This document shows, one piece after another, positions 1 to 24,889 of a stretch of 25,850 nt of DNA. The DNA lies in IMG/VR virus record IMGVR_UViG_3300044858_002264, positions 1 through 25,850 of that record. The stretch is one strand, 5' to 3'. The notes under the pieces are model-generated. The model did not search any database. It saw only the letters and a list, made by a program, of their open reading frames with translations, and was not told where the DNA came from. A program made the position numbers and the translations under genes. Each line of letters opens with the position of its first letter. The first letter of the stretch is position 1. This stretch comes from a virus.

Positions 1-82
1 AACGCAACGCCTGCATCAGCGCGACGCAGCACGCCAGCCATGCGGCCAGGGAGACGGCGGCGGTGGTCAGGAGGTCGGTCAT
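1..82 (-). CDS. Start of a hydrophobic (membrane or secreted) protein, truncated by the window edge
   Basis: Only the first 27 codons are inside the window. They begin MTDLLTTAAVSLAAWLACC and continue hydrophobic, like a transmembrane helix or signal peptide. The ATG at 82 overlaps the stop of the LamG gene (ATGA at 82-79), the junction style used throughout this operon, which supports the start. A holin or another lysis or membrane protein would fit a position after the tail fibres, but that is only inference from position. The rest of the gene is outside the window and its function cannot be assigned. Confidence 0.5.
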   Translation of the reverse strand, partial: MTDLLTTAAVSLAAWLACCVALMQALR

Positions 83-4212: not shown

Positions 4213-4269
4213 GAGCTGAATTCCCAGGTCGCCTGGGAGCTGGCTGAAGGTAGCGATGGCGTCACCTCG

Positions 4270-4569
4270 TCAATTGTGGGGCGCTTCGCCGGTCTTCTTC
4301 ACGACCGCCTGCTTGATTTCCTGCTGGCCGGCGGCGATCTCTTGGAGGGTTTCGGCCTGCTTGTACTGGGTTTTCCCGATCTCGTCGAGGGTTTCCCTCG
4401 TGGAATCGAGGAACTCGGTGTGGGATTTGACGATCGGCACGAGCACGGTGCCGTGCAGCGTCACGGCCGCATCCCTGAGAAACCAGATCATCACGGCCAA
4501 GATGACGACAGGAACGCCGAACCTCTCGGCCACGCGGAACGCGGCCTCGGTGAACGATTCGCTTGACAT
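4270..4569 (-). CDS. Small membrane protein with coiled-coil tail
   Basis: 99 residues. One hydrophobic segment at about 18-37 (FGVPVVILAVMIWFL) follows a short polar N-terminus. The remainder is a charged helix rich in Glu, Gln and Lys (TETLQEIAAGQQEIKQAV type), likely a coiled coil. GGAG six bases before the ATG at 4569 decides the start over an in-frame upstream codon near 4650. Phages often encode such one-helix proteins near lysis genes, so a holin or spanin-like accessory role is possible, but no family signature is visible. It lies between the dNMP kinase and the baseplate gene. Its stop is directly followed by a strong Shine-Dalgarno sequence for the next gene. Confidence 0.7.
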   Translation of the reverse strand: MSSESFTEAAFRVAERFGVPVVILAVMIWFLRDAAVTLHGTVLVPIVKSHTEFLDSTRETLDEIGKTQYKQAETLQEIAAGQQEIKQAVVKKTGEAPHN

Positions 4570-4594
4570 CTGCCACTCCGCGGGAACTACAAAA

Positions 4595-4609
4595 TGTCGG
4601 CTAGTAGCC
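4595..4609 (-). repeat. Intergenic inverted repeat followed by GACA (site 1)
   Basis: On the minus strand an 11-base palindrome GGCTA-C-TAGCC (4609-4599) is followed at once by GACA (4598-4595). It lies three bases after the kinase stop. A near copy, with one base pair swapped between the arms, is at 7158-7172, and similar elements are at 20748-20764 and 22730-22745. The function is unknown; there is no T-run of a terminator. Confidence 0.5.
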
Positions 4610-4612
4610 TTC

Positions 4613-5155
4613 TTAAATTGTAGCACCAGCGAGTTGCAGTCTGAGGTCATCCAAGGTGCCCGAATTGTCGATGGTTCTGGCGACTAAGTGGTCGCCGACC
4701 CCGGCCTCGCTCGAGTGCGACGCCGCGGCGGCGTCAAGGCACCGCCACCCAGGCCGCGCGACCCTCCACACCTCGCCGCCCGCGTCAATGATCGCCTGCG
4801 CCTCGTTGTCGAACCGAACGTCGGTGATGACGCAGCTCAGGCCGGCGGCCAGCTCCGGCCTGATCCGCTCCAGGGTGATGCGAATCCAGATTTCGGGGTG
4901 AACTCCGTCCCTCCCCCACTCAGTTCCCAGGCTCTGGAGAAGCTGCCTCGGCGACTTGCCCAGCCAGGGGATCACGGCCTCCTTGACGGCCCGATCCTGA
5001 AGCCGACTGACGGGCAGGCCGGTGATCGTCGAAATGCACTGGTAGAGCCGATCGGCGAAGGCCACCTGCCGGAACGAGCAGCCGTCGGCATCTATAAGAA
5101 ATTCTGCCACTGTATTCTTACCAGCCCCCGCGGGCCCGCAGAGCCCAATCAGCAT
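4613..5155 (-). CDS. Deoxynucleoside monophosphate kinase
   Basis: 180 residues. A P-loop lies at the N-terminus (LIGLCGPAGAGKNTVAEFL, residues 2-20). ITDVRFDNEAQAI (Walker B-like region) and RQLLQSLGTEWGR fit the T4 gp1-type deoxynucleoside monophosphate kinase family, which converts dNMPs to dNDPs for phage DNA synthesis. The length is slightly below T4 gp1. The ATG at 5155 is seven bases after GGGAGG and overlaps the deaminase stop by seven bases (ATGCTGA), so the two are probably translationally coupled. With the deaminase upstream it forms a nucleotide-supply cassette. A role in an unusual base pathway is possible, but nothing in the sequence shows it. Confidence 0.85.
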   Translation of the reverse strand: MLIGLCGPAGAGKNTVAEFLIDADGCSFRQVAFADRLYQCISTITGLPVSRLQDRAVKEAVIPWLGKSPRQLLQSLGTEWGRDGVHPEIWIRITLERIRPELAAGLSCVITDVRFDNEAQAIIDAGGEVWRVARPGWRCLDAAAASHSSEAGVGDHLVARTIDNSGTLDDLRLQLAGATI

Positions 5156-5628
5156 GGAAAATCCCTCCCGTCGAAGCGAATCGTCACCCCTACGCTGCCG
5201 GCCAGGAGCCTCTGCCCGACGCCGGCCTCCTCGATCATCTCGCAGGCGACCTCGACTTTTTTCAGCCACCGGGCGGGGGTCGCGTTCCGCAGGCTGATCA
5301 GCCCGACGACCTCGCGGACTCCGGCGATGATGATCGCTCTGGCGCAGTCTGGGCACGCGAACCAGGGGCAGTAGAGGGTCGCGCCGGCCGTCGCAAAGCC
5401 TGCGGCGGCTGCCCGGTGGATGGCGGCCCGCTCGGCGTGCTCGATAAAGTCGTATTTGACTGGGGCCGAGAGCCGGCGATCGTTCCTCTTGACCCCAGGC
5501 GGGACACAGTTTGCAGCGTAGACCGTATGCCGGCCCGCTACCAGGATCGCCCCGTTCTGCGTGTTCGGGTCGTGCGAGTGGGTCGCGGCGTGCCGGCAGG
5601 CTTCGGCGAGATATTCGAGGTCAGTCAT
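5149..5628 (-). CDS. dCMP/cytidine deaminase family protein
   Basis: 159 residues. Zinc-dependent deaminase motifs are present: HAE at 64-66 (zinc ligand and catalytic Glu) and ACPDC at 91-95 (two Cys ligands), preceded by ATLYCPWF. The spacing fits the dCMP/ComE-type deaminase fold. The likely reaction is deamination of dCMP to dUMP, feeding dTMP synthesis, although related members act on other cytosine or guanine substrates. The stop overlaps the kinase start, and the ATG at 5628 overlaps the phosphoesterase stop (ATGA). The Shine-Dalgarno sequence is weak (GGGG), so coupling to the upstream gene is likely. No thymidylate synthase is visible in the window. Confidence 0.85.
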   Translation of the reverse strand: MTDLEYLAEACRHAATHSHDPNTQNGAILVAGRHTVYAANCVPPGVKRNDRRLSAPVKYDFIEHAERAAIHRAAAAGFATAGATLYCPWFACPDCARAIIIAGVREVVGLISLRNATPARWLKKVEVACEMIEEAGVGQRLLAGSVGVTIRFDGRDFPC

Positions 5629-6800
5629 TTCGTCGGCCCCGCAACGTGCATGGCGTGGAGCCCGCCCTCGGGCTTGTAGATGAAGCACTCCATCCCGCGG
5701 CGGGAGCCCAGGTAGCCGCTGGCCGCGTGCCACTCGTCGGCCGGCGCGATGGACGGGGCGGTGCGAATCGTCACCGAATCCTCGGATGCCAGGAACTTCT
5801 CTGCGGCCTGCCCGTGGAGGTGTCCTGTGTGGTACTCGCGATACCAGCACTCGGCCCACTGCTGCGCCGCCTCGATCGCCATAAGCTGCGGCAGCCGCTT
5901 CCTCGCGCGGTCACCGTGTGCCGCCCCCAGTAGGTTCGACCCATGCGAGACATACTGGCGGCGGGTGTAGTTGTTCGACACGACCACGCGGCCGTCGTTT
6001 CGGAACCGCTCGATCAGAATTCGCCGAAACGCCGTCGACAACATTTCGTCGTGGTTGCCCGGCACGACCAACAGGTCGGTCTGGGCCGTCTGCGCCGCCC
6101 GCTCGACGACGCCGATCAGGGCGCTGCATCCCGTGTTGAACACTTTCTGGATGCGTCCATCGTTGTCCTGCGGGGTGCCGGAGGTCGTCGCCCCCGCCGG
6201 CCCGTCGGAGTTGAAGAGGTCGCCCAGGAATAGAATCGTGCGGCGAGACGGCTTGTAGGTGTCGCCGATTTCGATGAGTTCATTGGTCGTGTCGCGGATC
6301 GTTGTTTCGGCGATCGAAATGTCGAAGTCGGTGTCGCCGGTCGATTTCGACCAGCAGTACCGGCCGACATGCGTGTCGGCGATGACCAGCACCTGCCAGA
6401 GGTCGCCTCGGCTTTTTCTCTGGATCGGCTTCTGCTTCGTCCTTGGCAGGCTCGCCCCGGCGATCATCGCCTCGACGATCTCCTTGACTCCTGGCCCCGC
6501 CTTGGGCTTGAGCCTCACCCAGACGCGGTGCAGCTCAGTGACCGTCGGCTCGCCGTTTGCGTCGGCGGTCGCCACCTCCCACTTGGTCGCCTCACTAGCC
6601 GCTACTTCGTAGCGGCTAGTGTCGGCCTCGATGTGCTTGAGGAGGTCATCGACCGTCTTAATTCGACGACTCGTCGATCTCGCCTCCAGCGTGTCGCCGT
6701 CGCGACGCTGGGTCACCTGCTCGGCGTCCAGTGCCGGTTTCGGTGTGACTCCGGCGGCGGCGGACGAGAGGATGTCGCCTGTCAGCCCTGAGTCAGCCAT
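5625..6800 (-). CDS. Calcineurin-like metallophosphoesterase
   Basis: 391 residues. The C-terminal two thirds carry the five metallophosphoesterase motifs in order: DTH (142-144), GDLF (193-196), GNHD (248-251), HGD (295-297) and GHLHG (326-330). These bind two metal ions for phosphodiester or phosphomonoester hydrolysis. The N-terminal 120 residues form a separate region, KTVDDLLKHIEAD followed by a beta stretch ending WVRLKP, perhaps a winged-helix or nucleic-acid-binding module. AGGTG stands five bases before the ATG. The start overlaps the upstream small helix-turn-helix gene by 19 bases. A nuclease, nucleotidase or DNA end-processing role would suit its neighbours, but the substrate is unknown. 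A perfect 13-bp hairpin lies inside its coding region. Confidence 0.85.
   Translation of the reverse strand: MADSGLTGDILSSAAAGVTPKPALDAEQVTQRRDGDTLEARSTSRRIKTVDDLLKHIEADTSRYEVAASEATKWEVATADANGEPTVTELHRVWVRLKPKAGPGVKEIVEAMIAGASLPRTKQKPIQRKSRGDLWQVLVIADTHVGRYCWSKSTGDTDFDISIAETTIRDTTNELIEIGDTYKPSRRTILFLGDLFNSDGPAGATTSGTPQDNDGRIQKVFNTGCSALIGVVERAAQTAQTDLLVVPGNHDEMLSTAFRRILIERFRNDGRVVVSNNYTRRQYVSHGSNLLGAAHGDRARKRLPQLMAIEAAQQWAECWYREYHTGHLHGQAAEKFLASEDSVTIRTAPSIAPADEWHAASGYLGSRRGMECFIYKPEGGLHAMHVAGPTK
6593..6621. repeat. Perfect 13-bp inverted repeat with 3-base loop inside the phosphoesterase gene
   Basis: The arms are CACTAGCCGCTAC (6593-6605) and GTAGCGGCTAGTG (6609-6621), exact reverse complements around a 3-base loop (GAA in the mRNA). 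It encodes residues 60-70 of the phosphoesterase (around TSRYEVAASE), between its N-terminal region and catalytic domain. No T-run follows. Confidence 0.9.
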
Positions 6801-7027
6801 CGTTGCACCTGACGGTATTTGGCGACCTTGTAGCCGCGGGCAGAGAGCTTCTCGATGATTGTCTTCGCCATCTGGCTGGCCGAGACGCCGGTCGCTTCGG
6901 AGGTCTTTCGCCAGGAGTCGCGGACCTCAAGGATTGCGCTTTGGTGTTCTTCTGACAGAGCGGTGAACCAGCTTTGGCTTCCTGACGACGGCCTTGCGCT
7001 TTCGAGAATCTCCTTCGCTAAGTCCAT
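6782..7027 (-). CDS. Small probable helix-turn-helix protein
   Basis: 81 residues from the ATG at 7027, which follows AAGGA by eight bases. The frame is open further upstream, but that part looks like a shadow of the overlapping ORF. The protein is helical: WFTALSEEHQSAILEVRDSW, then SASQMAKTIIEKLSARGYKV and YRQVQRWLTQG. The last segment looks like a recognition helix of a DNA-binding domain. It could be a small transcription regulator or a DNA-binding partner of the phosphoesterase, whose start it overlaps by 19 bases. The 5-prime end overlaps another small ORF by about 100 bases in another frame. The function is inferred only from helical pattern and size. Confidence 0.65.
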   Translation of the reverse strand: MDLAKEILESARPSSGSQSWFTALSEEHQSAILEVRDSWRKTSEATGVSASQMAKTIIEKLSARGYKVAKYRQVQRWLTQG

Positions 7028-7148
7028 CCTGCTTTTCCTTGAGGTGAATCCACCCGTCGTCGTCGGGGATACCGCCGGTCGAGGCATCCTCGTCGTCATC
7101 CAGTTCGGGCGGGAGGATCAGTCCCTTGGGTGGAAATGCCTTGCCCAT
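6927..7148 (-). CDS. Small acidic ORF overlapping the helix-turn-helix gene
   Basis: 73 codons from the ATG at 7148. The first 40 residues (MGKAFPPKGLILPPELDDDE, then GIPDDDGWIHLKEKQ) look like real protein. The last 32 are basic and low in complexity (SRKRKAVVRKPKLVHRSVRR), as expected where the frame is constrained by the helix-turn-helix gene beneath it. No clear Shine-Dalgarno sequence precedes the ATG. Either it is a short gene overlapping its neighbour by about 100 bases, or its first half belongs to the helix-turn-helix protein through a +1 frame change near 7027. I recognise no family. Confidence 0.4.
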   Translation of the reverse strand: MGKAFPPKGLILPPELDDDEDASTGGIPDDDGWIHLKEKQDGLSEGDSRKRKAVVRKPKLVHRSVRRTPKRNP

Positions 7149-7157
7149 GACTGATAG

Positions 7158-7172
7158 TGTCGCCTAGTAGGC
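7158..7172 (-). repeat. Intergenic inverted repeat followed by GACA (site 2)
   Basis: On the minus strand the palindrome GCCTA-C-TAGGC (7172-7162) is followed at once by GACA (7161-7158), one base after the TAA stop of the zinc-ribbon gene. It matches the site at 4595-4609 at 13 of 15 positions. Both differences lie at the same pair of the palindrome, so the pairing is kept. Confidence 0.5.
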
Positions 7173-7173
7173 T

Positions 7174-7647
7174 TTACTGGTCAATGCTGTTTCGATGTGG
7201 CGTCGCCTTGCCCCATTTACCAATCGGACATTCCTGGTCGGCCCACGACAGCTTGCTGACATAGCCGGCCACCCTGCTGACCGGGCATCCGCACAGGTTG
7301 CAGGCGTCGTTTTGCAAGTGCTCGCACGTCAGGCAGATGTCGTGCCTGCGGATGATCTCCTCGTCCGACGCCATCGGCATCCCTGCTGCGACGTGCTGTG
7401 CCGCTGCGGTGGCGAAGTTACGGACCTTCGCGAGGAACGACGGGGTGTTCGTGCGGTCGAAGTCGGGGGGCAGGGCCGGCGGCTGCGGCTCGTATCCCGG
7501 TTTCGGCGTGCGTGGATAGAATTCGCTCTCCACGTCAATCGTCCACTCGTCACCGTTTTGTGCGACGACGCACGGCATCACCTCGTCAAGCGTGTAGCCA
7601 CGATCCGCGCAACGGGCTTCGAGGTGTGAGCGGTGGCAGGTGATCAT
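7174..7647 (-). CDS. Phage zinc-ribbon-like protein with C-terminal CPIGKW motif
   Basis: 157 residues. The C-terminal quarter has CLTCEHLQNDACNLCGCPV followed by a Lys/Ser stretch and CPIGKW. This cysteine pattern (CxxC, CxxCxC and a last Cys) occurs in small phage proteins and probably binds zinc (DUF6171-like, from memory). The N-terminus (MITCHRSHLEARCADRGYTL) also carries Cys and His. The ATG at 7647 overlaps the previous stop (ATGA), which decides the start over a longer open frame. It lies between probable tail proteins and the accessory block. The role is unknown: a structural zinc site, or contact with nucleic acid or protein. Confidence 0.72.
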   Translation of the reverse strand: MITCHRSHLEARCADRGYTLDEVMPCVVAQNGDEWTIDVESEFYPRTPKPGYEPQPPALPPDFDRTNTPSFLAKVRNFATAAAQHVAAGMPMASDEEIIRRHDICLTCEHLQNDACNLCGCPVSRVAGYVSKLSWADQECPIGKWGKATPHRNSIDQ

Positions 7648-8237
7648 GGAAGGGGGTTCCCGCAGCCAGCACCGCACTCGCCCACGGTGCCGAATGGTCC
7701 ACCGACGGCTTGGTATCCATTGATAGTCGGCGAAGTGTTGCAAAAATCGGGAAGGTTACTATCGAAAACCAGCTCGATTGTCGGCGGCGTCTCAATAAAA
7801 GTATCAATGATAGTACGGACGCAAGGTGGCGGGTTTCCGGCATTATTATTTTGACCCGTGTTTACAACAACAGCGTTTGCGTCAAGCGTCGGAAACTCAA
7901 AGGCGTATCTGCGTGTCCATATGTAGTCGCCGCCCTCAAACACGCTACAGTACACTCGTCCGCCAAAAATCCGGCCCGAGCGGAGGCCGGTGCGCTCGCA
8001 GTAAGAAGGATACTCACCGGGGCTTACTCCGTCGATAGTTCCGCCGAACTGAATTCTCTGCCGCGCGACGCACGAACCCGATACGATATCGTGCTCAACA
8101 CGCCCGAAGCCGCCCCCGCCAAGGCCGGCGACGGTAGAAACCGACACGGTTCCGCCCCAGCTAAGTTTAAGCCTTGCCCCGCGATTACATGGGTTCGGCG
8201 CGTGGCAGTAGTAGAATGTGCAACAGCGGCACGCCAT
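7644..8237 (-). CDS. Cysteine-rich probable virion protein, unknown
   Basis: 197 residues. The N-terminus is Cys-dense (MACRCCTFYYCHAPNPC), with more Cys through the protein and CGAGC near the end. The middle is beta-like and Gly-rich (VSVSTVAGLGGGGFG) with several Tyr and Phe, and there is a Pro/Asn-rich turn (NNNAGNPPPC). Disulfide- or metal-stabilised structure in a tail-tip protein is plausible, but no family is recognised. GGAGA six bases before the ATG supports the start. The gene is AT-richer by eye than its neighbours, hinting at separate origin. It is one base downstream of another unknown protein and overlaps the zinc-ribbon gene. Confidence 0.65.
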   Translation of the reverse strand: MACRCCTFYYCHAPNPCNRGARLKLSWGGTVSVSTVAGLGGGGFGRVEHDIVSGSCVARQRIQFGGTIDGVSPGEYPSYCERTGLRSGRIFGGRVYCSVFEGGDYIWTRRYAFEFPTLDANAVVVNTGQNNNAGNPPPCVRTIIDTFIETPPTIELVFDSNLPDFCNTSPTINGYQAVGGPFGTVGECGAGCGNPLP

Positions 8238-8238
8238 C

Positions 8239-8877
8239 TCAAATCTCCAGCGTAATGTATGTGGCCGTGTAAGTTCCTGTTGTTATCACCGCCGTCTGAG
8301 TACCAGACATCGACATGATCGTTGCGGTCTGTGTCGAGCCGACAACCCGTACAGAAGTAGTTGTTTTGTTGACAGTAATACTGCAATTGCTTGAATTCAG
8401 AACAGCCGATATGTTTGTCAAAACAGATACGCTCTCGCCCGGCGTTGCGAACGCGACTGTTTGCGTTGCGTGAGTCCCAACAAACGTAATTGTCTGCGTT
8501 CTGCCAGAAAACACCGCAGTCGCCGTCGACATCTGGAAGCTGACCAGATACCACGCCGTGCCATCCTTGGCGACGTTGACGATGCGGCTTGTGTTCGTGC
8601 TTGCCGGGGCCGGGAGGCTGACGATCTTGTTGATGACGCTGACCGTGTTCGGCGTGGCCGTGACGCCGAGGAACGTCACCGACTTCGACGTGTCGATGGG
8701 CCAAGCGCCGGCGGCGGTGCAGACGCGGAAGACCTTGGGGACATAGGTCGGCGAGGTCTCGGCTCGCGTCGGTATCTGCGACACCCCGCCGCCGTATGGC
8801 ATTCCATCAACACGCGCAATGGTCTCCTTGATCTTGGCGACCAGTTGCGGCCCGATGAGGAAGCCTTTTTGCGCCAT
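8239..8877 (-). CDS. Unknown probable tail/virion protein, Thr/Ser/Val-rich
   Basis: 212 residues. A short helical N-terminus (MAQKGFLIGPQLVAKIKETI) is followed by a long region dominated by Thr, Ser and Val (FVGTHATQTVAFATPGESVS, then TQTATIMSMSGTQTAVITTG), typical of beta-structured virion proteins. There is no membrane segment, signal peptide or enzyme motif. It follows the probable baseplate protein by two bases and precedes the Cys-rich gene by one. The 3-prime half is AT-richer by eye than the surrounding genes. A baseplate or tail-tip component is inferred from position only. Confidence 0.68.
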   Translation of the reverse strand: MAQKGFLIGPQLVAKIKETIARVDGMPYGGGVSQIPTRAETSPTYVPKVFRVCTAAGAWPIDTSKSVTFLGVTATPNTVSVINKIVSLPAPASTNTSRIVNVAKDGTAWYLVSFQMSTATAVFSGRTQTITFVGTHATQTVAFATPGESVSVLTNISAVLNSSNCSITVNKTTTSVRVVGSTQTATIMSMSGTQTAVITTGTYTATYITLEI

Positions 8878-8879
8878 GC

Positions 8880-9956
8880 CTAGAAGATCCAGCGAATATC
8901 GAATGCGGAGAAATCGTCGCCGAACGGCATTTCGGGCTGAGTGCGAAACGCCTCGAACTCTATACTCGAGACAGTGGCGTCAAGTGGCGTGCCGTTGCTA
9001 AAGAGCGGCACGGGCTGGCCTGACGGCACCTGCGTGTAACCGCCGTCATCGAACGGAATCTTGACCATAGCCCTGACTCTCGTCCCTTGCGTGGCTGCGG
9101 CGTAGTCCCTCCCGGTCGGCGTCGGCAGGGTCGTCAGCACTCGCCCTCCAGATCGCTCAAGGGCCAGCGCGTCACTGTTGACGCCGGGGGAGCCCAGGCC
9201 AGCCTGGAGAACCATGTAGCCCGTCACCGGAACCTTGAGGTTCCAGCCGTTCGGTTTTCCCGTCACCATGAACTGAAAAGTCCGCTTGAACCCGCGGAAC
9301 GTCGCGCCGCCCCAGGTCTCGACAACTGGGACGGTCTCGATGTTGCGGAGCATACAAGCCTTTGATGGCACGCTGCTCCCAGAGAACGTGAACGACTGAC
9401 TGTTGATGTAGCCGATCTTGTCGTTGTGCCGCGTGGGGAGTGTGTCGAATTGCTCGATGTTGATCGTGAAGCTGGGGACGAGCGTCGTCAGCCCGTCATA
9501 TAGCTCGCCGTTCGGGTTTTTGGCGACCGCCTTAGACGAGTTGTCGTCGGGCGTGTCGTAGTATTCGTGTACGGCGATTTCTTCGAGCGACCCCGAGATC
9601 GAGAACATTGCGGGGCGGATATCCGGCGGGTCGAGTTTCGGGTCACGCTCGCCCCCGCTCTCGCCGCCACCTACGTCCAAGCCCACGCCCGGCGTCGTCC
9701 GGTATGTGGCCGTGACGATGCGGACGAGCCGACTTTCGCCGTCTGCCTTCACGTCCAGGCTGACGCACGGGATCAGTTCGCTCTCGCTCAACGGGTCGCC
9801 GATGTTGACGCCGACCGCCTCGGGCACGACGAACGGCTCGTTCGGGTACTCAAGCAGCACCTTCCAGACGCGGGTGGCCGTGTCGGCCAATGCTCCGCCT
9901 TCGCTGCTGCGGCTGTACGATTTCCCCTGCGCGAGTTCGGATACGAGTTTTGGCAT
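8880..9956 (-). CDS. Probable distal tail/baseplate protein downstream of the tape measure
   Basis: 358 residues, directly downstream of the tape measure gene and sharing TAATG with its stop. This slot usually holds the distal tail or baseplate hub protein of siphophages. The sequence is mixed alpha/beta and many stretches look like virion sandwich domains (TINIEQFDTL, SQSFTFSGSSVPSKACMLRN). The C-terminus (DDFSAFDIRWIF) is aromatic. AGGTGGT precedes the ATG. I do not recognise a Dit or Tal signature, and no peptidase or lysozyme motif is visible, so the assignment rests on gene order. Confidence 0.6.
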   Translation of the reverse strand: MPKLVSELAQGKSYSRSSEGGALADTATRVWKVLLEYPNEPFVVPEAVGVNIGDPLSESELIPCVSLDVKADGESRLVRIVTATYRTTPGVGLDVGGGESGGERDPKLDPPDIRPAMFSISGSLEEIAVHEYYDTPDDNSSKAVAKNPNGELYDGLTTLVPSFTINIEQFDTLPTRHNDKIGYINSQSFTFSGSSVPSKACMLRNIETVPVVETWGGATFRGFKRTFQFMVTGKPNGWNLKVPVTGYMVLQAGLGSPGVNSDALALERSGGRVLTTLPTPTGRDYAAATQGTRVRAMVKIPFDDGGYTQVPSGQPVPLFSNGTPLDATVSSIEFEAFRTQPEMPFGDDFSAFDIRWIF

Positions 9957-12900
9957 TAGTTCACCACCTGCCCAGTGTTTGCGACCACGGCCTGCCTGAT
10001 TTCCTCGAGCTTCGATATCTGCTTGTTGAGAGCCTCGAGGTTCTGGTTCTTGGCGTCGTCATCGCCGCGTAGAAGCCTGTTGAGTTCGCTCTGGCCCTGC
10101 GAGGTGTTGATGTCGGCGGCCTGGAGCCTCGCCCGCGACGGCTCACGCATGGCGTTCTTGAACTGCTCGTCCATCGAGAAGAGGATCGGAGCGGCGTCCT
10201 TGAATGCGTTGCGGGTGGCGTCTTCGATGAACTGCTGGCGATCGCGGCCGCTCTCGATTTGGGAGGCGCGGGCGGCGATGTCGGCACCTATGCCGTCGGC
10301 TTTCTCTCTGTCCCTATCGCGTTCCGTCATGCCGAGTTCGCGTCCGCGGGCGGCAGATTTCTGGAACTCCTCCTCCGCCGTGGAAGCGTCTCTCGCGGCA
10401 TCGACTTTTTTCTGGCTTCGCCTTGCGTCGTCCTCCATTTGGTTGACGAGAGTCTCTCTCTCGCGGATTAGCTCCTCGCGTCGCTCGCTATCGTTCGTCG
10501 GCACGGCGGCGATCTGGGCGTCGATCTCGGCGAGTCTCGCCGCGCCTTCGTTGGCGACTTCAGCCTGCCGAGCCAAGGCGGCGGCGAGTTCTTCGCCGGC
10601 TTTGCGGACTGCATCCCAGAACTTGGCTCCTCGCTCTTCCTTAGTGAATCCGGCGGCCACCATCGCGGCGTCGCCCTCGTCGTTACGACGCTCAAACTCG
10701 TCTGCGAGGTCGCCACGGCCAGCATCGCGAATGGCATTGCGAACGGCTGTTTCACCCATGCCGGCAGTGTCAATGCCGAGGTCTGTTGCGGTATTCTGCA
10801 AATCACTCAGTGTCTGCGATTGAGCTTGCGCGGCCTCGTTCCTCTTCCTTGCCAGCTCGACATCTGCGGATGCCGCCGAACTCTGGTTGCTAACGTCTGC
10901 GGCTACCGCCGCCCGCTCGTCGGCGAGCCTCTTGCGCTCCTCCTCCTGCTTCGCGCGACCGCTCTTCAGCTCTTCGTCGATCTCCTGCACCCGCTCCTTC
11001 TGCGGACGCTGCATTTCCTCGAGGCGGTCGCGTTCAACCTCAATCTCTTCTTGCGCCCGACGCTCCACGCCCCTCTGGGCCTCTAGGTCGGCCTCGGCCT
11101 GACGGCGAGCCTCTCGCGTCGCGGGAGTGCTGTTGCCGAGATCGGCCCGGCGAGCCTCGTCGGCTCGCTGCTGCGCCGAGTTCAGATTGCCGGCGACCTC
11201 CTCGGCAGCCTTGTTCAGCTCTGCTGCAAATATCTTGACGGCGATCGTTGCTGCCTCGATGGCTGCGGCCTCTTCGTTGAGTGCCTGCTCGGCGTCTTGC
11301 AGACCGCGACGCATCTCTGGAGTCTGAAACTCAGGCAGCTCCGCGCGGCGGCGAATCTGCTCCCGCTCGGCCTCGATCTCACGCATGCGGCGGGCGATGC
11401 GGCCGTCATCGAGACCGGCGGACGAGAGGTTGCTGCGAGCACGACCAAGCCGGGCGTCGATCTGCCGCTGGGGGTCGACGATCCGCTCGTTGGCGAAGGC
11501 GTCGGTCTGGGCGGCCATATCGCGGCGGCGGGCGTTGAGAGCGTCGATGTCGGCGCGGGCGGCGGAGACCAGCCCTTCCGCCTCGGCTGGCGTGAGCGGA
11601 CGACCGTTCTCGTCCTTGCCGGAAGCGGCGGACTCGAGTCTCTTATACGCCTTCGCCAACTGCTCCGCGTTATTGTCCAGCTCCTGCTGGAACAACCTCG
11701 CCCCAGGCAGGCCGAGTCTGATTGCCTCGGCGACCTCTTCCTGCGCTTGACGGATTTGCTCCGCCGGGCCGCGGGATGCTGCGGCGATTTCTGTTGCAGC
11801 CTTGTTGATCTCCCGCAGGAGGGGAGCACTCAGGGTGCCGAGGATAAGAGTGAGTTCCGCGATCTCTTTCTTGGCCGCGGTGGCCTCGTTCGACGTGAGA
11901 AGCCCGCCTTCGATCTGCGTCGACAACTCTTGAATGCGGGCATCAACTTGCTGCCTAGCTTCGCTGACGCTTCCAGCCAACGGCACGGCGGCGGCTCGCT
12001 CCATTAATGGCGCGGCTGCACGAGCGGGAGCGAACGGGTCGTCGGGGTTCACGGCACCGGCGTCCCTCGCGGCGGCCACCGCCTGTGCCTCCAGAGACTC
12101 CCGCAACCTTTTTTGAATCTGCTCAAAGTCAGGTGGAGTCGCAGAGACGGCGCGGTCGGCTGCCTCCCGCTCGCGCCGCCTGGACTCCTCCAGTTGCCTC
12201 TGGAGCCCGGCAATCTCGCCAACGTCTGTGCTCTTTTCGATCTTGTTCTTTAGCTTTTGCTGCTCGGCCCGCTCCTTGATAACCTCGGGATCGAAGTCGG
12301 CCACGCTGTTTCGGATCGCCTCGTTCTGCTTCTTCCTGATATCCTCTAATTGCTTTGAGAACTCGGCAGCCCGCTCGCCGCCGGTTGAGAAGGTTCCGCG
12401 AGACATCGAGTCGCCGAGCGAGCGAAACGCTTGAGCCAGTTCCTCGACGAGGCTTTTCTGTCGAGCCAGGGCGTCATTGAGTGCCTTCGTCTGGTCTTCG
12501 GCCGAGCGGCCGTTGTTGGCATACTTGATGAGGGCGACCGCTGCCTGCCCCGCAATCACGGCCCCGAGGCCAATCCACAAACCCTGCGTGCCTCCGAGAA
12601 TGAATGCGAGTTGCGTGACGTTGTTGCTTATCGCGCGGAGCTTGAACTCAAGACCGCCGGTCGAGGACAAGAAGTCGTCGACCGCAAAGGCGGCTTGATT
12701 CAGGGCGAGCGCAAACTTGTCGGCACCGGCGCGCCCCACGTCACCGATGCCCTTGACGAATGACGCAGCTTCTGCCTTGCTCTTGAACAGGCCAGCAGCT
12801 AGGGCCGCCTCGCCAATCTTCTCTGCAAGTTGGTCGGCTTGCTCCTTCGTGGCGGCAAGACCAAGGGTGCCCTTCCTGGCCGCGCTCTCGACGAAAGCTG

Positions 12901-18820: not shown

Positions 18821-19150
18821 TCACCCCATCCAGAGGGCGGTGTACGAACCCGTGCCGGACGGCGCAGAAACCGTGATCGCCGTCGTGACCGGCAGCACGG
18901 CCACGCGGCCCGCGGCCACGTCCACGCTCCCGGCCAGCCGCAGGACGCTCGAGCCCGTGTTCTTGACCACCAGCGTCGTGAGCGGCGTAGACCCGACGAT
19001 CTGCACGGCAGCCGTCCCGACGCTGCCATTGATCGTCTGGGCCGTCGTCAGCGACGGGGCAATGTGCTCGGACAGCGCGCCGATTGTCAGCGAGTTGCTG
19101 TCTGAGTCGTGGTAGACGGCGTCGATGTCGATGCGAGCCTTGACGGTCAT
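18821..19150 (-). CDS. Small beta-rich probable virion protein
   Basis: 109 residues with alternating hydrophobic and Thr/Ser residues: TLVVKNTGSSVLRLAGSVDV, then AAGRVAVLPVTTAITVSAPS, ending YTALWMG. It looks like a compact beta-sandwich, such as a decoration or neck protein. The start overlaps the connector stop (ATGA, 19150-19147) and it ends three bases before the head-closure GTG. I recognise no named family. A structural role at the head-tail joint is inferred from position. Confidence 0.65.
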   Translation of the reverse strand: MTVKARIDIDAVYHDSDSNSLTIGALSEHIAPSLTTAQTINGSVGTAAVQIVGSTPLTTLVVKNTGSSVLRLAGSVDVAAGRVAVLPVTTAITVSAPSGTGSYTALWMG

Positions 19151-19788
19151 CGGTATACCCCCATGCTGGCCGCGGCCAGGAGCGTCTCGAACGTCTGCGG
19201 CACAGAAACAGGAGCCCCCGTGACCGCCGGCTGTCTCGTGTCATACCAGTGGGCCACGAGCAGGCAGATCAGATGCTTCACGACCGGAGGGCAGGCCAGC
19301 CCGTCATCGCCGTAGCCCGCCGAATACCGCACCGTCACCGAATTCTCGTCGCCACGAGTCGCCGGCCACGATCTGGCCCACTGCGGGTAAACCCGCCCTG
19401 GCATCACGCTCGCATCGATCTGGAAGTCGCCGTTCGCGCTATAGAGCGTGCCGTAGGTGCCGTCGCCGTTTCGGTAGGTCACCGTGATCGCCCTGTCCAA
19501 CAGCGGCAGGCGGGGCAGGACGATCGCCCAGACGGGAAACAGGTCGTACTTGACCTCCCACACAGTCGTGCAGATCGTGATATCAAGGACATCCTCGACG
19601 TACTGCCGCGCGACGGCGATCAGCCCCTGGATGTAGAGGTCGTCGGTCTCGGTGTCGACGCGGCAGTGCTGCTTCGCCGTCGACAGGGTGACCGGCTCCA
19701 CGGCCGGGTTCGTGATGCGGCGCAGGCTGCGAAACGGCGTAATCGTCGCCGTCGGCTTCTGCGGCGTGCCGAAGATAATCGTGTCCAT
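19147..19788 (-). CDS. Head-tail connector, gp6-like (phiE125 gp8 family)
   Basis: 213 residues. PVTLSTAKQHCRVDTETDD (residues 32-50), then QGLIAVARQYVEDVLDITI, is the hallmark of the gp6-like/phiE125 gp8 head-tail connector family. These form a dodecameric ring under the portal. The middle has LPRLPLLDRAITVTYRNGDG and the C-terminus has VTVRYSAGYGDDGLACPPVV followed by HLICLLVAHWYDTRQ, all family-like. The ATG is immediately after the TAA of the 63-residue gene (TAAATG), and the stop overlaps the next start. Confidence 0.82.
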   Translation of the reverse strand: MDTIIFGTPQKPTATITPFRSLRRITNPAVEPVTLSTAKQHCRVDTETDDLYIQGLIAVARQYVEDVLDITICTTVWEVKYDLFPVWAIVLPRLPLLDRAITVTYRNGDGTYGTLYSANGDFQIDASVMPGRVYPQWARSWPATRGDENSVTVRYSAGYGDDGLACPPVVKHLICLLVAHWYDTRQPAVTGAPVSVPQTFETLLAAASMGVYR

Positions 19789-19980
19789 TTACCGCCTCTT
19801 CTTCGGTGTGTGCTTCACGGCCACTTCCGCCCGCTCGACGGTCTCGGGCACAGCCTCGGCCGTCTCGACCTCCTCGATCAGCCCGCGGCGGATGAGGATG
19901 TCGCACATTCCGGCCGCCCAGTCCTCGAAGACTTGCCCCTTTTCGTAGCAGTCAAAGTTTTGGAGTACGCGGATTTTCAA
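19789..19980 (-). CDS. 63-residue unknown protein
   Basis: The reading frame starts at a TTG (19980) that overlaps the glycosyltransferase stop (TTGA), with GGGGGCAGG just before it. The protein reads KIRVLQNFDCYEKGQVFEDW, then AAGMCDILIRRGLIEEVE, and ends with acidic then basic residues (VKHTPKKRR). Short phage proteins with the pattern of a beta start followed by a helix ending in a Gly-Leu turn are common between head genes, but no function is known to me. A longer open frame upstream is a shadow of the glycosyltransferase gene. Confidence 0.65.
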   Translation of the reverse strand: MKIRVLQNFDCYEKGQVFEDWAAGMCDILIRRGLIEEVETAEAVPETVERAEVAVKHTPKKRR

Positions 19981-20705
19981 TGAACCTGCCCCCAGGCGGT
20001 TTCCGGCGCTTTTTGGCCGTTCGTCCAGTATTCCGTCGTGTGCTGCTGCACCTTGCCGCCCTCGACCGTCCTCGAGGGCCATGTCACCATCAGCTCGGCG
20101 TGGCCGACGCTGACATGCGTGGCGAGCCCCAGCGTGTTCCCGCAGGCCGCCCAGGATTTCCAGAATGCGATGTCCTCGTCGGTATGCCCGCCGGTCCACT
20201 CGCCCTGGTCGTTCGCCCTGGCGAGGAACCACGGCTTCTTCATCTTCTTGAGGCCGGCAGTCCGCAGGAACGTCAGGCCGAAGTGGGCCGTCTCCACGGG
20301 CTGCACGACCTTGTTGAAGAAGTCGCTGTCCACCGTCGTCTTCGCGTCTACGTCGTTGCCGGCGAGGGCGAACATCACCGCGTTCGCCTCCCGCTTGCTC
20401 TGGAGCGGCGCGATGGCGTCGTAGCCAGAGTGCAGGAGCAGAGTCAGCAGGGCCTCGACCGTCTTCGCGTTGAAGACCGTGTCGTAGTCGATGGTTAGGA
20501 TCACGTCGTGGGTGTCGACGACCTGCTCCATCGCCCGCTGGAGGCACTGGCCCCAGAAGGCACCCGTCACCTTGATGGGACTGATGCCATGAGGGGCCAG
20601 TGCCGACGAGACGCAGAAGAAGTTGTCGGTGAATCCAAGTCGCGGGGTGCTCATCACCGCCGCGACTTTGATTTCCGCTTCGACGTTACCGACTCTCAAC
20701 AGCAT
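19977..20705 (-). CDS. Glycosyltransferase-like protein (GT-A fold) in the head module
   Basis: 242 residues. VILTIDYDTVFNAKTVEALL has the D-x-D motif (D73, D75) expected of GT-A nucleotide-sugar transferases. It is followed by a SKREANAVMF region, AHFGLTFLRTAGLKKMKKPW, the acidic DEDIAFWKSW (176-185) and VGHAEL with a His at 202, as in many family 2-like enzymes. AAGGAG six bases before the ATG is an excellent ribosome binding site and is partly paired in a small hairpin. The gene sits between decoration-like and connector genes. It could glycosylate capsid, decoration protein, host surface or DNA; the sequence does not say which. Confidence 0.72.
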   Translation of the reverse strand: MLLRVGNVEAEIKVAAVMSTPRLGFTDNFFCVSSALAPHGISPIKVTGAFWGQCLQRAMEQVVDTHDVILTIDYDTVFNAKTVEALLTLLLHSGYDAIAPLQSKREANAVMFALAGNDVDAKTTVDSDFFNKVVQPVETAHFGLTFLRTAGLKKMKKPWFLARANDQGEWTGGHTDEDIAFWKSWAACGNTLGLATHVSVGHAELMVTWPSRTVEGGKVQQHTTEYWTNGQKAPETAWGQVH

Positions 20706-20710
20706 GGATC

Positions 20711-20726
20711 GCTCCTTGTATGGAGC
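20711..20726 (-). promoter_or_regulatory. Hairpin pairing the ribosome binding site of the glycosyltransferase gene
   Basis: In the mRNA GCTCC and GGAGC form a 5-bp stem around a 6-base loop. The 3-prime arm contains the GGAG of the AAGGAGC Shine-Dalgarno sequence, ending five bases before the ATG. This could lower expression until unfolded. The stem is short, so it may be chance. Confidence 0.3.
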
Positions 20727-21244: not shown

Positions 21245-22597
21245 TCACGACGCCGCGGACTTGAGGGCAACCACGGGGCCGGCGGTCGTGTTGTCGCCGA
21301 GCGAGTGATGAACCACGTCGAACCGCATCGTGCCTTGGAGCAGGAGCTGGTCGGTCGTGGCGTAGACTTGGTCGTACATCCGCACCGAGAAGTCCCGGCG
21401 ACGGGCGTAGATGCTGGACAGACCCAGGTTCGCGAAGAGAACCTTGACCCTGCCGGGATCGGCACCGAGCGTGCCGTCGAGGACGTGAACGTAGTTCACA
21501 GGAAATCCCATGAACTGCTCGGTCACGCCGCCGCCGACCTGCTCGACGGTGTTACCACCAGCCGCGTAGCGGAGGCGGGCCATCGAGGCCGCGAAGCCGG
21601 CCGGCGAGATGTACCACGCTGCACCCTGGCGGGCGTAGAGCGGCATCTTGCCGATGACCTTGATGAAGTCGGTCACGGTCAGGGTCTCGAAGCCCGTGGC
21701 ACCGGCACCGGCAGTCACGACGCCCGCGGTGTGCGTGCCGTCGTTGACCTTCGGCACCACGCCGTAGATTCCGCCAGAAGCCGAGTCGCCCGCGCCGAGC
21801 CAGCCGACCAAGTCGGTCTTGTAGGCCAAGCTCGTGGCGAACTCCGTAGCCACGGCGTCAGCGATCGACACCAGGGCGTCTTCCACCACCTCGCTCGACA
21901 TGCGAGTGCCGACCGCGAGCTTCTTCGCGATGAGCTGCACGTTCGAGTAGGTCGGCTCGCTCTCGCTCACCGCGGTGCCTTCGCCGACGAAGTAGGCCGT
22001 GGTGCCCGTGACACGCTTCGGGATGATCATCGTGTCGCGGGTCATCGTCACCTTCTCGACGTTGCTCGCTGCGAAGGTTCCGAAATTTTCGACCAACCTG
22101 ATCACGCGAGAAGCGAACTCCTCTGGGACGAGGGCACCGCCGGAAGCGTTGCTGTTCTCGCCCATCGCGCGGTTCTCGACGCCGTGATCCTTGCACCACC
22201 GGAGGTCTTCGGCGTTCTTGAAGATGTGAGCCCGCAGCCACCGGCCGCAGCGGTACGCGCTCTCGACGGCCTCGGGGCCATCGTTGAACGCCCGCAGGCT
22301 GGTGTGATGGGGCTGGATCGAGCGAATCTCGACCTTCTTCTCCTCGACCTTCGCGGCGACTTCAGCCACGGGAGCCGGGGCAGGGGCGGCCTTCTCGACC
22401 ACGGCCCGCAGTTCGGCTTCCTTGGCAGCGATCCGCTCCTCGAAGTCGAGGGAGGTCTTCAGGTCGTCGGCCTGGGTGCCGAGCGAGATGAGTTCCTTGG
22501 TCTGCTCGGCCGAACGGTCCTCGATGCTGGACAGCTCGGTCATCCGCGCGGCGACAGCCGCGGCACGTTCCTGAAGACGCTTGAGATTCGATGCCAT
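21245..22597 (-). CDS. Major capsid protein, HK97 fold, with N-terminal scaffold-like domain
   Basis: 450 residues from the ATG at 22597, with AAGGAG ten bases upstream. Residues 1-65 form a charged coiled coil (LKRLQERAAAVAARMTELSS), followed by an Ala/Pro linker at 66-85. This resembles the delta domain of HK97-type capsid proteins, cut off by the protease. The mature part begins after about residue 95, with GGALVPEEF at 153-161, MIIPKRVTGTTAYFVGEGTA, and LAVGTRMSSEVVEDALVSIA, all typical of HK97 capsid folds. SIYARRRDFSVRMYD is near the end. It is preceded by the protease gene and a structured 148-base leader, and followed by the decoration-like gene. Confidence 0.92.
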   Translation of the reverse strand: MASNLKRLQERAAAVAARMTELSSIEDRSAEQTKELISLGTQADDLKTSLDFEERIAAKEAELRAVVEKAAPAPAPVAEVAAKVEEKKVEIRSIQPHHTSLRAFNDGPEAVESAYRCGRWLRAHIFKNAEDLRWCKDHGVENRAMGENSNASGGALVPEEFASRVIRLVENFGTFAASNVEKVTMTRDTMIIPKRVTGTTAYFVGEGTAVSESEPTYSNVQLIAKKLAVGTRMSSEVVEDALVSIADAVATEFATSLAYKTDLVGWLGAGDSASGGIYGVVPKVNDGTHTAGVVTAGAGATGFETLTVTDFIKVIGKMPLYARQGAAWYISPAGFAASMARLRYAAGGNTVEQVGGGVTEQFMGFPVNYVHVLDGTLGADPGRVKVLFANLGLSSIYARRRDFSVRMYDQVYATTDQLLLQGTMRFDVVHHSLGDNTTAGPVVALKSAAS

Positions 22598-22676
22598 GTT
22601 TGGCCTGCTCCTTGGTTTGAGCCGGCCAATCGCACAATGCGGCGGCCGGCGGGTGATCCCGCTAGCGCGCCGCGTG

Positions 22677-22690
22677 CTTGAATCCTCAAG
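22677..22690 (-). promoter_or_regulatory. GGA-loop hairpin 2 of the capsid leader
   Basis: The arms CTTGA and TCAAG (5 bp) close the mRNA tetraloop GGAT. The loop sequence matches that of the hairpin at 22707-22724, about 32 bases away. Confidence 0.45.
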
Positions 22691-22706
22691 TCGCTCGCAC
22701 TGCCCC

Positions 22707-22724
22707 TCACGACATCCGTCGTGA
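22707..22724 (-). promoter_or_regulatory. GGA-loop hairpin 1 of the capsid leader
   Basis: The arms TCACGAC and GTCGTGA (7 bp, perfect) close the mRNA tetraloop GGAT. ACGGAUGU across the loop is close to the core of the CsrA/RsmE consensus. No T-run follows, so it is not a simple terminator. Confidence 0.5.
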
Positions 22725-22729
22725 AGCAA

Positions 22730-22745: not shown

Positions 22746-24419
22746 CTACTGACCCTGACGTGCGCCGTGCAACTGAGTCCGAAGGATTGTCGCCTTCAGG
22801 TTCGCAAGCTTCACAGCGATGTCGACGCTTTCCTGCTCCGCACGCATGTCCTCGGCGGGCTTTTCTTCAACCGGAGCAGGCTCCGGCTTCTTCTCTTCTT
22901 GGCTCATACGCTCCTCGGGGATGATCCACAGCTTGCACACGGCGTCGGCCGCGATGGCACCTTGAACGATGTAGCACCGGCCCTCTTCGCTCTCGAAGAA
23001 GACGCAGTTGCTGCACTTCACGCCATCCTTGGCGAAGGGATTCTCAGTCATGTAGTGAGCGTCGTTCTGGCTCCAGGGGCCATACTCCTCGGCGATGCCC
23101 TCATACGACTCGGCCAGGGCGAGGTTCGCGGCCGACAGGACGCCGCCGTACTCTTCCTTGATGGCCTCGCCGTCTTCGCCGATGTCACGCTTGCCGCTCT
23201 CGCGTTCCATCTGCGAGACCTTGGCCTCACTCCACCGCCACGCGGGATCGCCGCCCCAGAGCATCCAGGCGGTGTAGCCAGGGGTTTCATCGCCGGCCTT
23301 GCTCCAACCGGGTCGCTTGTCGACCTTATGACGCCGGAACCACGCCCGCATCTCGCGAACGTGCTCAGGCGTCAGTTCCTCGCGGGCCGCGATCTTGCCG
23401 GCACGGGCCACCGTCTCCGGCTTGAGGCCGTCGCCCGACCGGCCAGCCTCGTGCAGAGCCAAACCACGCTTCGCGGCGGCGGCCATGCCGGCGGTGGGCG
23501 TCAGATTCACGTCAGAGGCGGCTCTTTCCTCGGAAACAGGGGCGGTTTCAGCCGGGATGTCCACCGACGGGGCTACCTCATCGGACGATGAGGCAGCACG
23601 CCGATCCACCCACTTCTCGCCAGCGTCGCCGCCGGCCAGTTGCCACTCGATCCAGGCCGGCGAGCCAGACCAACCCGTCACTTTCGCCGCCAAACACCGC
23701 TCGTAGACGCCGGAGAGGTACGAAACCTCCTCGACGCTGACGATTTCGCGGTTCGCGACTCGTTCGGCGATGCAGAGGAGGCGAGAATCGATGTTTTCGT
23801 GCCTCTGCGCCAGCTTCAGACCTCGTTTCGACGCATTCGCCATCGTCTGGATGGGCCTGAACGACTCGCCGAGGGCCATTTCGATGGCTCGGCGGCTCAC
23901 AACCACGCTCGATGAGTCGTAGGCGGGCCGAACGACAGGCCCAACGTCCTCGAGCAGGCCGATCGCACGCACTTCACGCCTGCGAATGCCTCTCTGGTTG
24001 TCCGTCGACCACGAATCGCCACCGTCTCGCTTGATCGCGAAGGCGAAACTGGAGCCGACAACCGTCCGGTCCTTCACCCACTCGATCACGTCGCGACCGA
24101 TGGAGGTGTTTTCGTTCGGCGTGATCTCATAACGAAGCCCATACGGGTCTTTCGTGAGCTTCATCGACCCGTTTCCGGTGCGGCCGAGGAGCAGGTTGCG
24201 GTCGTGATTGAACACACCGATGACATCGGGGTTCTCGGCGAGCACTTCGTCGAACGCATTCGGATGAATCGTCTCGATGAAGCCGCCCAGGTTGCGACTT
24301 TCGGCGTTAAAGACGGCGGCGTAGCCCGAAATCACGGGCTTCTTCTCGCCATTTCCCATGTCGCGGTACTCGATCGTCGCGTCAGAAACCGTCGTTCGCC
24401 GCTCAATCTCGTTGCTCAT
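22746..24419 (-). CDS. Prohead protease (HK97 S78-like) with fused repeat domains and a four-Cys domain
   Basis: 557 residues, far longer than typical prohead proteases of about 200. Residues 1-180 are the protease: ISGYAAVFNAESRNLGGFIE, NHD with catalytic His72, and VGSSFAFAIK with the probable catalytic Ser124. It matures the capsid by cutting the N-terminal scaffold domain. Residues 193-275 and 312-400 are two related domains (MANASKRGLKLAQRH to WLAGGDAGEKW style; AAAAKRGLALHEAG to WMLWGGDPAWRW). Residues 469-495 carry four Cys (CSNC, C482, C495) in a pattern like HiPIP-type iron-sulfur or zinc domains in phage proteins. An Ala/Glu/Pro tail and helix close it. It is directly upstream of the capsid leader and overlaps the ferritin-like gene (ATGA). 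Confidence 0.85.
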   Translation of the reverse strand: MSNEIERRTTVSDATIEYRDMGNGEKKPVISGYAAVFNAESRNLGGFIETIHPNAFDEVLAENPDVIGVFNHDRNLLLGRTGNGSMKLTKDPYGLRYEITPNENTSIGRDVIEWVKDRTVVGSSFAFAIKRDGGDSWSTDNQRGIRRREVRAIGLLEDVGPVVRPAYDSSSVVVSRRAIEMALGESFRPIQTMANASKRGLKLAQRHENIDSRLLCIAERVANREIVSVEEVSYLSGVYERCLAAKVTGWSGSPAWIEWQLAGGDAGEKWVDRRAASSSDEVAPSVDIPAETAPVSEERAASDVNLTPTAGMAAAAKRGLALHEAGRSGDGLKPETVARAGKIAAREELTPEHVREMRAWFRRHKVDKRPGWSKAGDETPGYTAWMLWGGDPAWRWSEAKVSQMERESGKRDIGEDGEAIKEEYGGVLSAANLALAESYEGIAEEYGPWSQNDAHYMTENPFAKDGVKCSNCVFFESEEGRCYIVQGAIAADAVCKLWIIPEERMSQEEKKPEPAPVEEKPAEDMRAEQESVDIAVKLANLKATILRTQLHGARQGQ

Positions 24420-24889
24420 GCCGTCACCTGATTCGCGAGGTAGTTATCCAGACCGATCTGCTCGATCACACGCTGCACTGCTTCGATTTTTGCGATCGCC
24501 TCTTCGCTGCCTTCAAGCAGCTTGGCGACGGCAATAGCCGAAATCTCGTCGCCTGCCGCCCGGCACGCCTGCACTCCGGCCCGCTCTGTCTCCGCGGCGG
24601 CGGTTTCCAGCGAAAGATTCGCCGCGAGGATGCCCTCGTAGTCGTGCCTGGGCCAATCGGGCTGATCATGGTCGTAGGTCGGCTGAACGTCGTAGTATTC
24701 GAGCCGGGACTGCACCTCGTGCAGGTGGCCCCGCTCCTCCTCGGCGTCGGCGCGGCTGCCGGCGGCCAGCTTGCCGTAGCCCCAGCGGTCAAGATGCTCC
24801 GCCTGCGACTGATAGTTCTCAATCGCCAGCAGATGCAGCCGAACGGAGGCTTGGAGGGCGTCGATCACGCCTTCAGGTGCTTGCGGCAT
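24416..24889 (-). CDS. Bacterioferritin-like helical protein with degenerate metal site
   Basis: 157 residues. It aligns by eye with E. coli bacterioferritin over nearly its whole length: LLAIENYQSQAEHLDRWGYG matches the helix A region including the Tyr, ERGH at 52-55 matches the E51-x-x-H54 ligand pair, E95 matches E94, and VIEQIGLDNYLANQV matches the C-terminal helix. Three ligands differ (E18 is H19, E127 is S128, H130 is A131), and the haem Met52 is Arg53. A complete di-iron centre is therefore unlikely. It lies between portal and protease, overlapping the portal by 17 bases and the protease by ATGA. No strong Shine-Dalgarno sequence is seen. It may be a structural four-helix bundle or an iron-binding relict; an alternative helical fold cannot be excluded. 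Confidence 0.75.
   Translation of the reverse strand: MPQAPEGVIDALQASVRLHLLAIENYQSQAEHLDRWGYGKLAAGSRADAEEERGHLHEVQSRLEYYDVQPTYDHDQPDWPRHDYEGILAANLSLETAAAETERAGVQACRAAGDEISAIAVAKLLEGSEEAIAKIEAVQRVIEQIGLDNYLANQVTA

Follow-up and report, generated by a model that had tools for sequence, protein, structure and literature searches.

A conserved predicted glycosyltransferase among the head genes of uncultured phages suggests that they sugar-coat their own capsid

The window analyzed here is a whole stretch of virus DNA of 25,850 bases (an IMG/VR record), and the gene under study lies on its minus strand among the genes of the head (Table 1). Read along that strand, the order is portal, ferritin-like gene, prohead protease, major capsid protein (MCP), a gene of family phrog_5707, the glycosyltransferase gene, a 63-aa ORF and a gp6-like connector, followed by a 109-aa ORF, a head completion protein and tail completion genes. 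The glycosyltransferase gene starts 540 bases past the capsid gene. We refer to the phrog_5707 protein as the decoration protein, which is a positional label for a family to which PHROGs assigns no function.

Several neighbors have features of their own. The ferritin-like gene between portal and prohead protease (Pfam Ferritin, E 3.9e-11) has homologues in 63 of 179 loci; some of these loci do not extend far enough to contain it, and some contigs are counted twice. The Pfam S78 protease match of the 557-aa prohead protease covers residues 20–180 only, and the remainder partly matches phrog_2859 (E 1.1e-12), a family of unknown function in PHROGs. In the majority of the 32 loci viewed, the MCP sequence ends in residues that include S or T. 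Near the start of the window lie two adjacent proteins of similar sequence, the second with a LamG-like Laminin_G_3 match (E 1.3e-10) and the first with no Pfam match.

Table 1. Features of the window discussed in the text.
Feature	Position	Strand	Remark
GT-A glycosyltransferase gene, 242 aa	20705..19977	minus	ATG at 20705, stop ending at 19977
AAGGAG ribosome-binding site of the glycosyltransferase gene	20712..20717	-	six bases 5' of the ATG
D73-Y74-D75 codons, DXD metal/nucleotide-sugar motif	20481..20489	-	invariant in A1; preceded by strand 68–72 (model)
D176-E177-D178 codons, putative catalytic-base motif	20172..20180	-	start of helix 177–187 (model)
H202 codon, putative C-terminal metal-ligand histidine	20100..20102	-	invariant in A1 and A3
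63-aa ORF	19789..19980	-	TTG start; overlaps the glycosyltransferase stop
gp6-like head-tail connector	19147..19788	-	
Putative decoration protein, phrog_5707, 141 aa	20781..21206	-	
MCP, HK97 type (Phage_capsid)	21245..22729	-	preferred candidate acceptor
Prohead protease, 557 aa	22746-24419	-	
Ferritin-like gene	24416-24889	-	
dCMP deaminase domain and deoxynucleotide monophosphate kinase domain	4613-5700	-	side by side
Two adjacent proteins of similar sequence	79-1985	-	second LamG-like

Long ORFs overlap one another on both strands of the window in large numbers by chance (ORF listing), so the length of the glycosyltransferase ORF alone proves nothing. The gene is established instead by its relatives in IMG/VR, by a 40-member alignment and by a low dN/dS. 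Relatives of the enzyme are encoded by 286 pattern-matched IMG/VR stretches, of which the best 80 were kept, and 40 family members (alignment A1, the window plus 39 of 47 representatives) align in 244 columns. The median dN/dS in the frame of the gene is 0.203, calculated over 47 loci from the 822 of 1,081 pairs whose dS lies between 0.2 and 1.2 (6 pairs were saturated). A preliminary description of this DNA had placed a gene at 19977–20705 but had left its strand unstated; the ORF is there, and it is read from the minus strand. The strong ribosome binding site noted at that time is the AAGGAG of Table 1, and the 242-residue protein carries the D73-x-D75 motif, the acidic stretch 176–178 and the histidine that had been pointed out, as D73, Y74, D75, D176, E177, D178 and H202.

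An AlphaFold2 model of the enzyme, built from 36 sequences (alignment A3, comprising the window, 30 close relatives and 5 distant ones), has a mean pLDDT of 89.1 and a pTM of 0.89 and takes a GT-A fold; an alignment-free model reached a pLDDT of 37, and the 36-sequence alignment was therefore used. The residues expected of an active site are retained to a high degree, with D73, Y74, D75, D178 and H202 invariant in the 40 members of A1 and D176 and E177 conserved in at least 90% of them, while in A3, five distant relatives included, D75, D178 and H202 remain invariant and D73 is kept in at least 90%. In the predicted structure H202 falls within strand 201–203.

The solved structure that best matches this model is A197 of the archaeal virus STIV (VIA-align Z 17.6, rmsd 2.8 over 176 residues, 15% identity; Foldseek E 2.7e-9). 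It is followed by LH3, Mimivirus R699, COLGALT1, B4GALNT1, RmlT, Mnn9 and TarP, and many GT-A enzymes match at Z 12–16; the other structures listed are, judged by title, glycosyltransferases or related nucleotide-sugar enzymes. LH3 also counts among the glycosyltransferase-type matches and is presumably matched over its accessory domain, and a collagen-like acceptor was not inferred although LH3 and COLGALT1 rank high. At the level of sequence, profile A3, searched against the PDB up to E 10, found a single chain, again A197 (E 0.11), and the profile alignment sets its D151 on D178 of the window. The Pfam family Glyco_trans_2_3 (PF13632) matches the window protein with E 0.043 and 14.1 bits against a cut-off of 27 bits, so the protein falls below the curated cut-off and is not filed under the Pfam glycosyltransferase family 2 group (PF13632/PF00535); 38 of the 40 family members match Glyco_trans_2_3 at E up to 1, the best at 5.4e-8. 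Residues 65–208 match phrog_1574 (E 2.1e-4), a family that carries neither a function nor a curated cut-off in PHROGs and is matched by 33 of the 40 members at E up to 1 (best 3.5e-6). No membrane segment was found in the enzyme, the highest 19-residue hydropathy being 1.15. By its predicted fold and motifs, then, the window protein is a GT-A glycosyltransferase, with sugar transfer as its predicted activity. This class had been proposed in the preliminary description, with structure prediction named as a check; the modeled GT-A fold, the motifs and the weak family hits all agree with it.

Glycosylation of the bases of the phage DNA by this enzyme seems very unlikely, even though the window encodes a dCMP deaminase domain next to a deoxynucleotide monophosphate kinase domain and these two enzymes occur in some phages with modified bases. 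The gene sits among head genes, and the thymidylate-synthase family (PF00303) was found in none of the 20 records searched for companion genes (18 of them from the window's family; records may be fragments), with a control that was positive in 9 of 14 genomes. The corresponding search for Tet/JBP (PF12851) gave 0 of 20 records with a silent control and carries no weight. DNA glucosyltransferases of the T4 AGT/BGT type are GT-B enzymes; the window model matches GT-A enzymes, and GT-B DNA glucosyltransferases are absent among the structural matches listed, a list that need not include every matching family.

The position of the gene was compared across 116 distinct enzyme sequences, drawn from 218 loci with at least 55% identity (8 more distant loci of the 226 matching ones were excluded), with order and strand scored relative to ten neighboring genes. 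As far as the contigs reach, all 116 copies show the same gene order and strand. The enzyme lies between the decoration gene and the 63-aa ORF in 100 of them, between MCP and 63-aa ORF in 5 and between MCP and connector in 1; in a further 6 the decoration gene precedes the enzyme and the contig ends within 50 bases, and in 4 the enzyme is followed by the 63-aa ORF on a contig that begins within 163 bases. The 63-aa ORF is accordingly the next gene after the enzyme in 109 of the 116 copies, and 6 of the remaining 7 are cut there. A search with the capsid protein, which is independent of the enzyme, leads to a similar picture: the best 80 of 225 contig matches were kept, and 75 of the 80 encode the enzyme. 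The 5 that do not (L089, L093, L119, L120 and L122) stop 0, 0, 205, 272 and 304 bases past the capsid match, short of the usual place of the enzyme. The comparison of gene order in relatives, which had also been suggested beforehand, thus finds the same slot throughout, and the earlier placement of the gene inside the head module can be extended, since the slot does not vary within the family and is found again in five annotated phages of other types. The glycosyltransferase is a core, fixed head-module gene in a large group of uncultured phages.

A divergent query retrieved relatives at 24–43% identity; distant relative loci are labeled L202–L206 in this analysis. In L202, L203 and L204 the glycosyltransferase domain is C-terminal within a longer protein and is preceded by a methyltransferase domain (Methyltransf_23/11 in L202 and L203, FkbM in L204), in L205 a methyltransferase gene comes after the glycosyltransferase, and in L206 a glycosyltransferase-methyltransferase fusion and a further glycosyltransferase lie downstream. 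The domain combination of the L202–L204 fusions is like that of A064R of Chlorovirus PBCV-1, a eukaryotic virus, which has glycosyltransferase and methyltransferase domains for capsid glycans. Matches of the L202 N-terminal domain to methyltransferases of Pbunavirus were dropped, the phage 14-1 gene being apart from the capsid genes shown. Two of these loci have further peculiarities: L203 encodes at 4882-6870 a 662-aa protein with apparently two methyltransferase domains (the second match is weak) and the glycosyltransferase domain, and L202 has two similar capsid-like proteins (806-1864 and 3546-4871) within a single head module, separated by a further long ORF; the first of the two proteins matches major head protein families.

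Companion genes of this kind are rare in the window's own family. Among its 18 records, PF08241 methyltransferases were found in none, PF05050 (FkbM) methyltransferases in 2, tens of kilobases from the gene, and extra PF00535 (GT2) matches, weak and below the cut-off, in 2, distant from the gene. Presumably the lone enzyme of the window's group adds a sugar straight to protein, or extends one made by the host.

As for the slot, the gene follows the capsid gene and one small gene in L202, L203, L204 and L206, and it stands right after the annotated capsid gene, or one small gene on, in the Manatee Spring phages ctyzp037, ctvy9321 and ct2t2046, the Microcystis phage Mel-JY34 and the Mycobacterium phage Thibault. 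In vir323, a virus of methanogens, several genes stand between the protease and this gene, which precedes tail genes; a capsid gene is neither annotated nor found. Other relatives sit elsewhere: near tail-fibre and baseplate genes in the cyanophages ACG-2014f and DSL-LC02 (phrog_1574 relatives), between primase and helicase in the pelagiphage HTVC027P, and after a 1358-aa repetitive protein in the 178-kb phage L205. In ctKR88 a relative lies among several sugar genes, which may or may not be close to the capsid gene. One family member matched 136 annotated records, 87 of them from cyanophages, and, provided that the two cyanophages are representative, phrog_1574 genes counted by record do not generally occupy the head slot. 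The caution, voiced in the preliminary description, that targets other than head proteins are possible stays valid in view of the cyanophage and pelagiphage relatives outside the head module.

Within the window's group the enzyme is also the most constrained of the genes compared. Its median dN/dS is the lowest of five, with 0.272 for MCP, 0.324 for the decoration gene, 0.337 for the connector and 0.450, the highest, for the 63-aa ORF, and mean identity to the window over 95 distinct copies is 79.0% for the enzyme, 76.6% for MCP, 70.6% for the decoration protein and 66.1% for the connector. Strong conservation and a position in the head module are compatible with a structural head component that keeps the glycosyltransferase fold without its activity. 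We consider this highly improbable, since catalytic residues should decay in an inactive enzyme, while D73, D75, D178 and H202 are invariant across the 40 members and the last three in the wider set as well; the three distant relatives that carry methyltransferase domains in the same chain likewise argue for an enzyme.

The acceptor was sought by co-variation of gene distances (47 loci, left from 131 once near-copies were removed), and no partner emerged. The distance matrix of the enzyme correlates with those of the head genes at 0.61–0.69, compared with 0.74–0.87 for head genes among themselves, and its partial correlations are all low (0.08–0.21), the top one being with the 63-aa ORF and not with MCP or the decoration protein. 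This lower agreement speaks against a tight partnership of the enzyme with any one head protein.

More can be learned from phages that have the enzyme and lack the decoration gene. The phrog_5707 gene is missing and the enzyme kept in 10 of the 196 loci where capsid and enzyme genes are both present, which amount to 6 of the 116 distinct copies, and in these loci the enzyme is 66–80% identical to that of the window. The phrog_5707 gene was found nowhere else in the two longest decoration-less records (44 and 60 kb; records may be fragments), nor in the other three decoration-less records or that of L204, by a search that did detect it in the record of L203 and in all 11 of the other close relatives. 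In a capsid tree of 32 loci, its 4 decoration-less loci make up one side of a branch with support 100/99, and we count the missing gene as one evolutionary event. Loss of the gene is the simpler reading, as a phrog_5707-like protein is present in L203 and, weakly, in L202. The tree of the enzyme hints at an exchange of this gene between phages that have the decoration gene and phages that lack it; such an exchange is not supported, as a tree that keeps the four loci together is not rejected (p-AU 0.143).

Since the enzyme is kept where the decoration gene is missing, the decoration protein is probably not its sole acceptor, and MCP is the better guess. Our best guess is that MCP is the most likely acceptor and the phrog_5707 decoration protein the next, with the reservation that a slot in the head module does not prove the acceptor. 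Of the earlier proposal that the capsid or decoration protein is modified, the virion acceptor is retained, by inference only, but the decoration protein as a necessary target is not, given the relatives without its gene.

Alternatively, the enzyme may act on the surface of the host, where a modified sugar could bring superinfection exclusion or a serotype change. Modification of host sugars is a common role of phage glycosyltransferases, and TarP, a teichoic acid glycosyltransferase, is among the fold matches. We nevertheless regard this as quite unlikely in the present case. The Gtr systems of serotype conversion have a membrane-spanning enzyme with flippase and GtrB neighbors, in contrast to the window enzyme, which has no membrane segment, lies among head genes and is under strong constraint. 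Moreover, only 1 of 392 genomes drawn from the candidate host phylum has a copy, on a contig also known as a virus contig, which does not point to a conversion gene that has spread through lysogens. This sole copy from a metagenome-assembled genome (MAG), of Planctomycetaceae, is on a 14,043-base contig, and an equally long IMG/VR contig is 100% identical over the gene; the binning of the MAG may therefore be wrong.

The reading in which a head protein receives the sugar has counterparts in known viruses. A197 of STIV has a GT-A fold with a DXD motif and Asp151 as catalytic base (PMC4187194), and its gene is described as essential and it is the proposed enzyme for the glycosylated STIV capsid protein (PMC10551542). 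It resembles the window enzyme in being a small single-domain GT-A protein (PDB 2c0n), with Asp151 aligned to D178, and in coming from a viral gene whose proposed role is to glycosylate the capsid protein of the same virus (PMC10551542, PMC4187194). It differs in belonging to an archaeal virus with a double jelly-roll capsid protein (PMC10551542), and the two are 15% identical in the structure alignment, with a sequence match (E 0.11) that is not significant. Capsid glycosylation is also mentioned for archaeal spindle-shaped viruses (PMC10866085).

Among tailed phages, the closest likeness in position is the glycosyltransferase/methyltransferase island of cluster J mycobacteriophages (Thibault gp11-gp19, Omega, LittleE), which occupies the slot between major capsid and connector genes and in which LittleE gp17 is a methyltransferase-glycosyltransferase fusion (PMC3706429). 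In the literature searched, which included few subscription journals, glycosyltransferases between capsid and connector genes are described only in that paper. The island comprises 8-10 genes, among them several glycosyltransferases, a kinase and a protease, whereas the window's group has a single gene in the slot without a glycosyltransferase/methyltransferase set, and the family is not filed as an island of this type. Thibault gp11 belongs to phrog_12406 (glycosyltransferase) and also matches phrog_1574 (E 1.1e-7), with a methyltransferase nearby. For the Thibault stretch 7016-12895 (L238), near-identical copies of gp11, the glycosyltransferase next to the capsid gene, are found in 34 mycobacteriophage records, and mycobacteriophage isolates with gp11 could act as proxies.

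Che8 and its relatives are reported to have glycans on capsid and tail-tube subunits of the virion (Freeman et al. 2023, as cited in PMC12619734 and PMC11256854) and are similar to our proposal in this respect; the Che8-related F1 phage Maravista differs in having its putative glycosyltransferase genes near the 3' end of the genome (PMC11256854). Such tail-tube glycans (as cited in PMC12619734), together with the phrog_1574 relatives near the tail-fibre and baseplate genes of ACG-2014f and DSL-LC02, would also fit an enzyme whose targets are not head proteins but a tail or fibre protein, or several proteins of the virion. This seems unlikely to us, as the slot in the window's family always lies in the interval from capsid or decoration gene to connector, and five annotated phages of other kinds carry the gene just past the capsid gene.

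We return to the preferred explanation, namely that a GT-A enzyme probably glycosylates a head protein in the cytoplasm, MCP being the likeliest acceptor and the decoration protein the second. From the computed gene, its predicted GT-A fold, the conservation of its catalytic residues and its fixed position, we infer the following course of events. A small soluble enzyme would take a nucleotide-sugar from the host and hold a divalent metal with its D73-x-D75 motif and H202, and D178 would be the likely catalytic base. The enzyme would be active in the cytoplasm, late in infection, and the sugar would be joined to the head protein before or during assembly. The benefit may lie in virion stability, shielding or adsorption.

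Viruses that glycosylate their own capsid are known yet little studied. The idea put forward here has direct precedents, and what is new is a widespread further member among uncultured phages. A broader reading, which is possible but which we hold only tentatively, is that a single ancient GT-A family (phrog_1574 together with A197-like enzymes) is devoted to the glycosylation of virions in bacterial tailed phages, in the tailed viruses that infect methanogens and even in an archaeal virus whose capsid is unrelated, that it has repeatedly been retained right behind the capsid gene and repeatedly been joined to sugar-capping methyltransferases, and that in the window's group it may be obligatory for a working virion and not an optional shield.

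In the literature searched, glycosylation of phage virions is mainly described for mycobacteriophages; here it would depend on a lone, constrained head-module gene in uncultured phages. If confirmed, this would suggest a function for phrog_1574 and would provide a one-enzyme system that is simple to rebuild in the laboratory, and it would mean that glycosylation of the capsid is central to assembly or stability in these phages.
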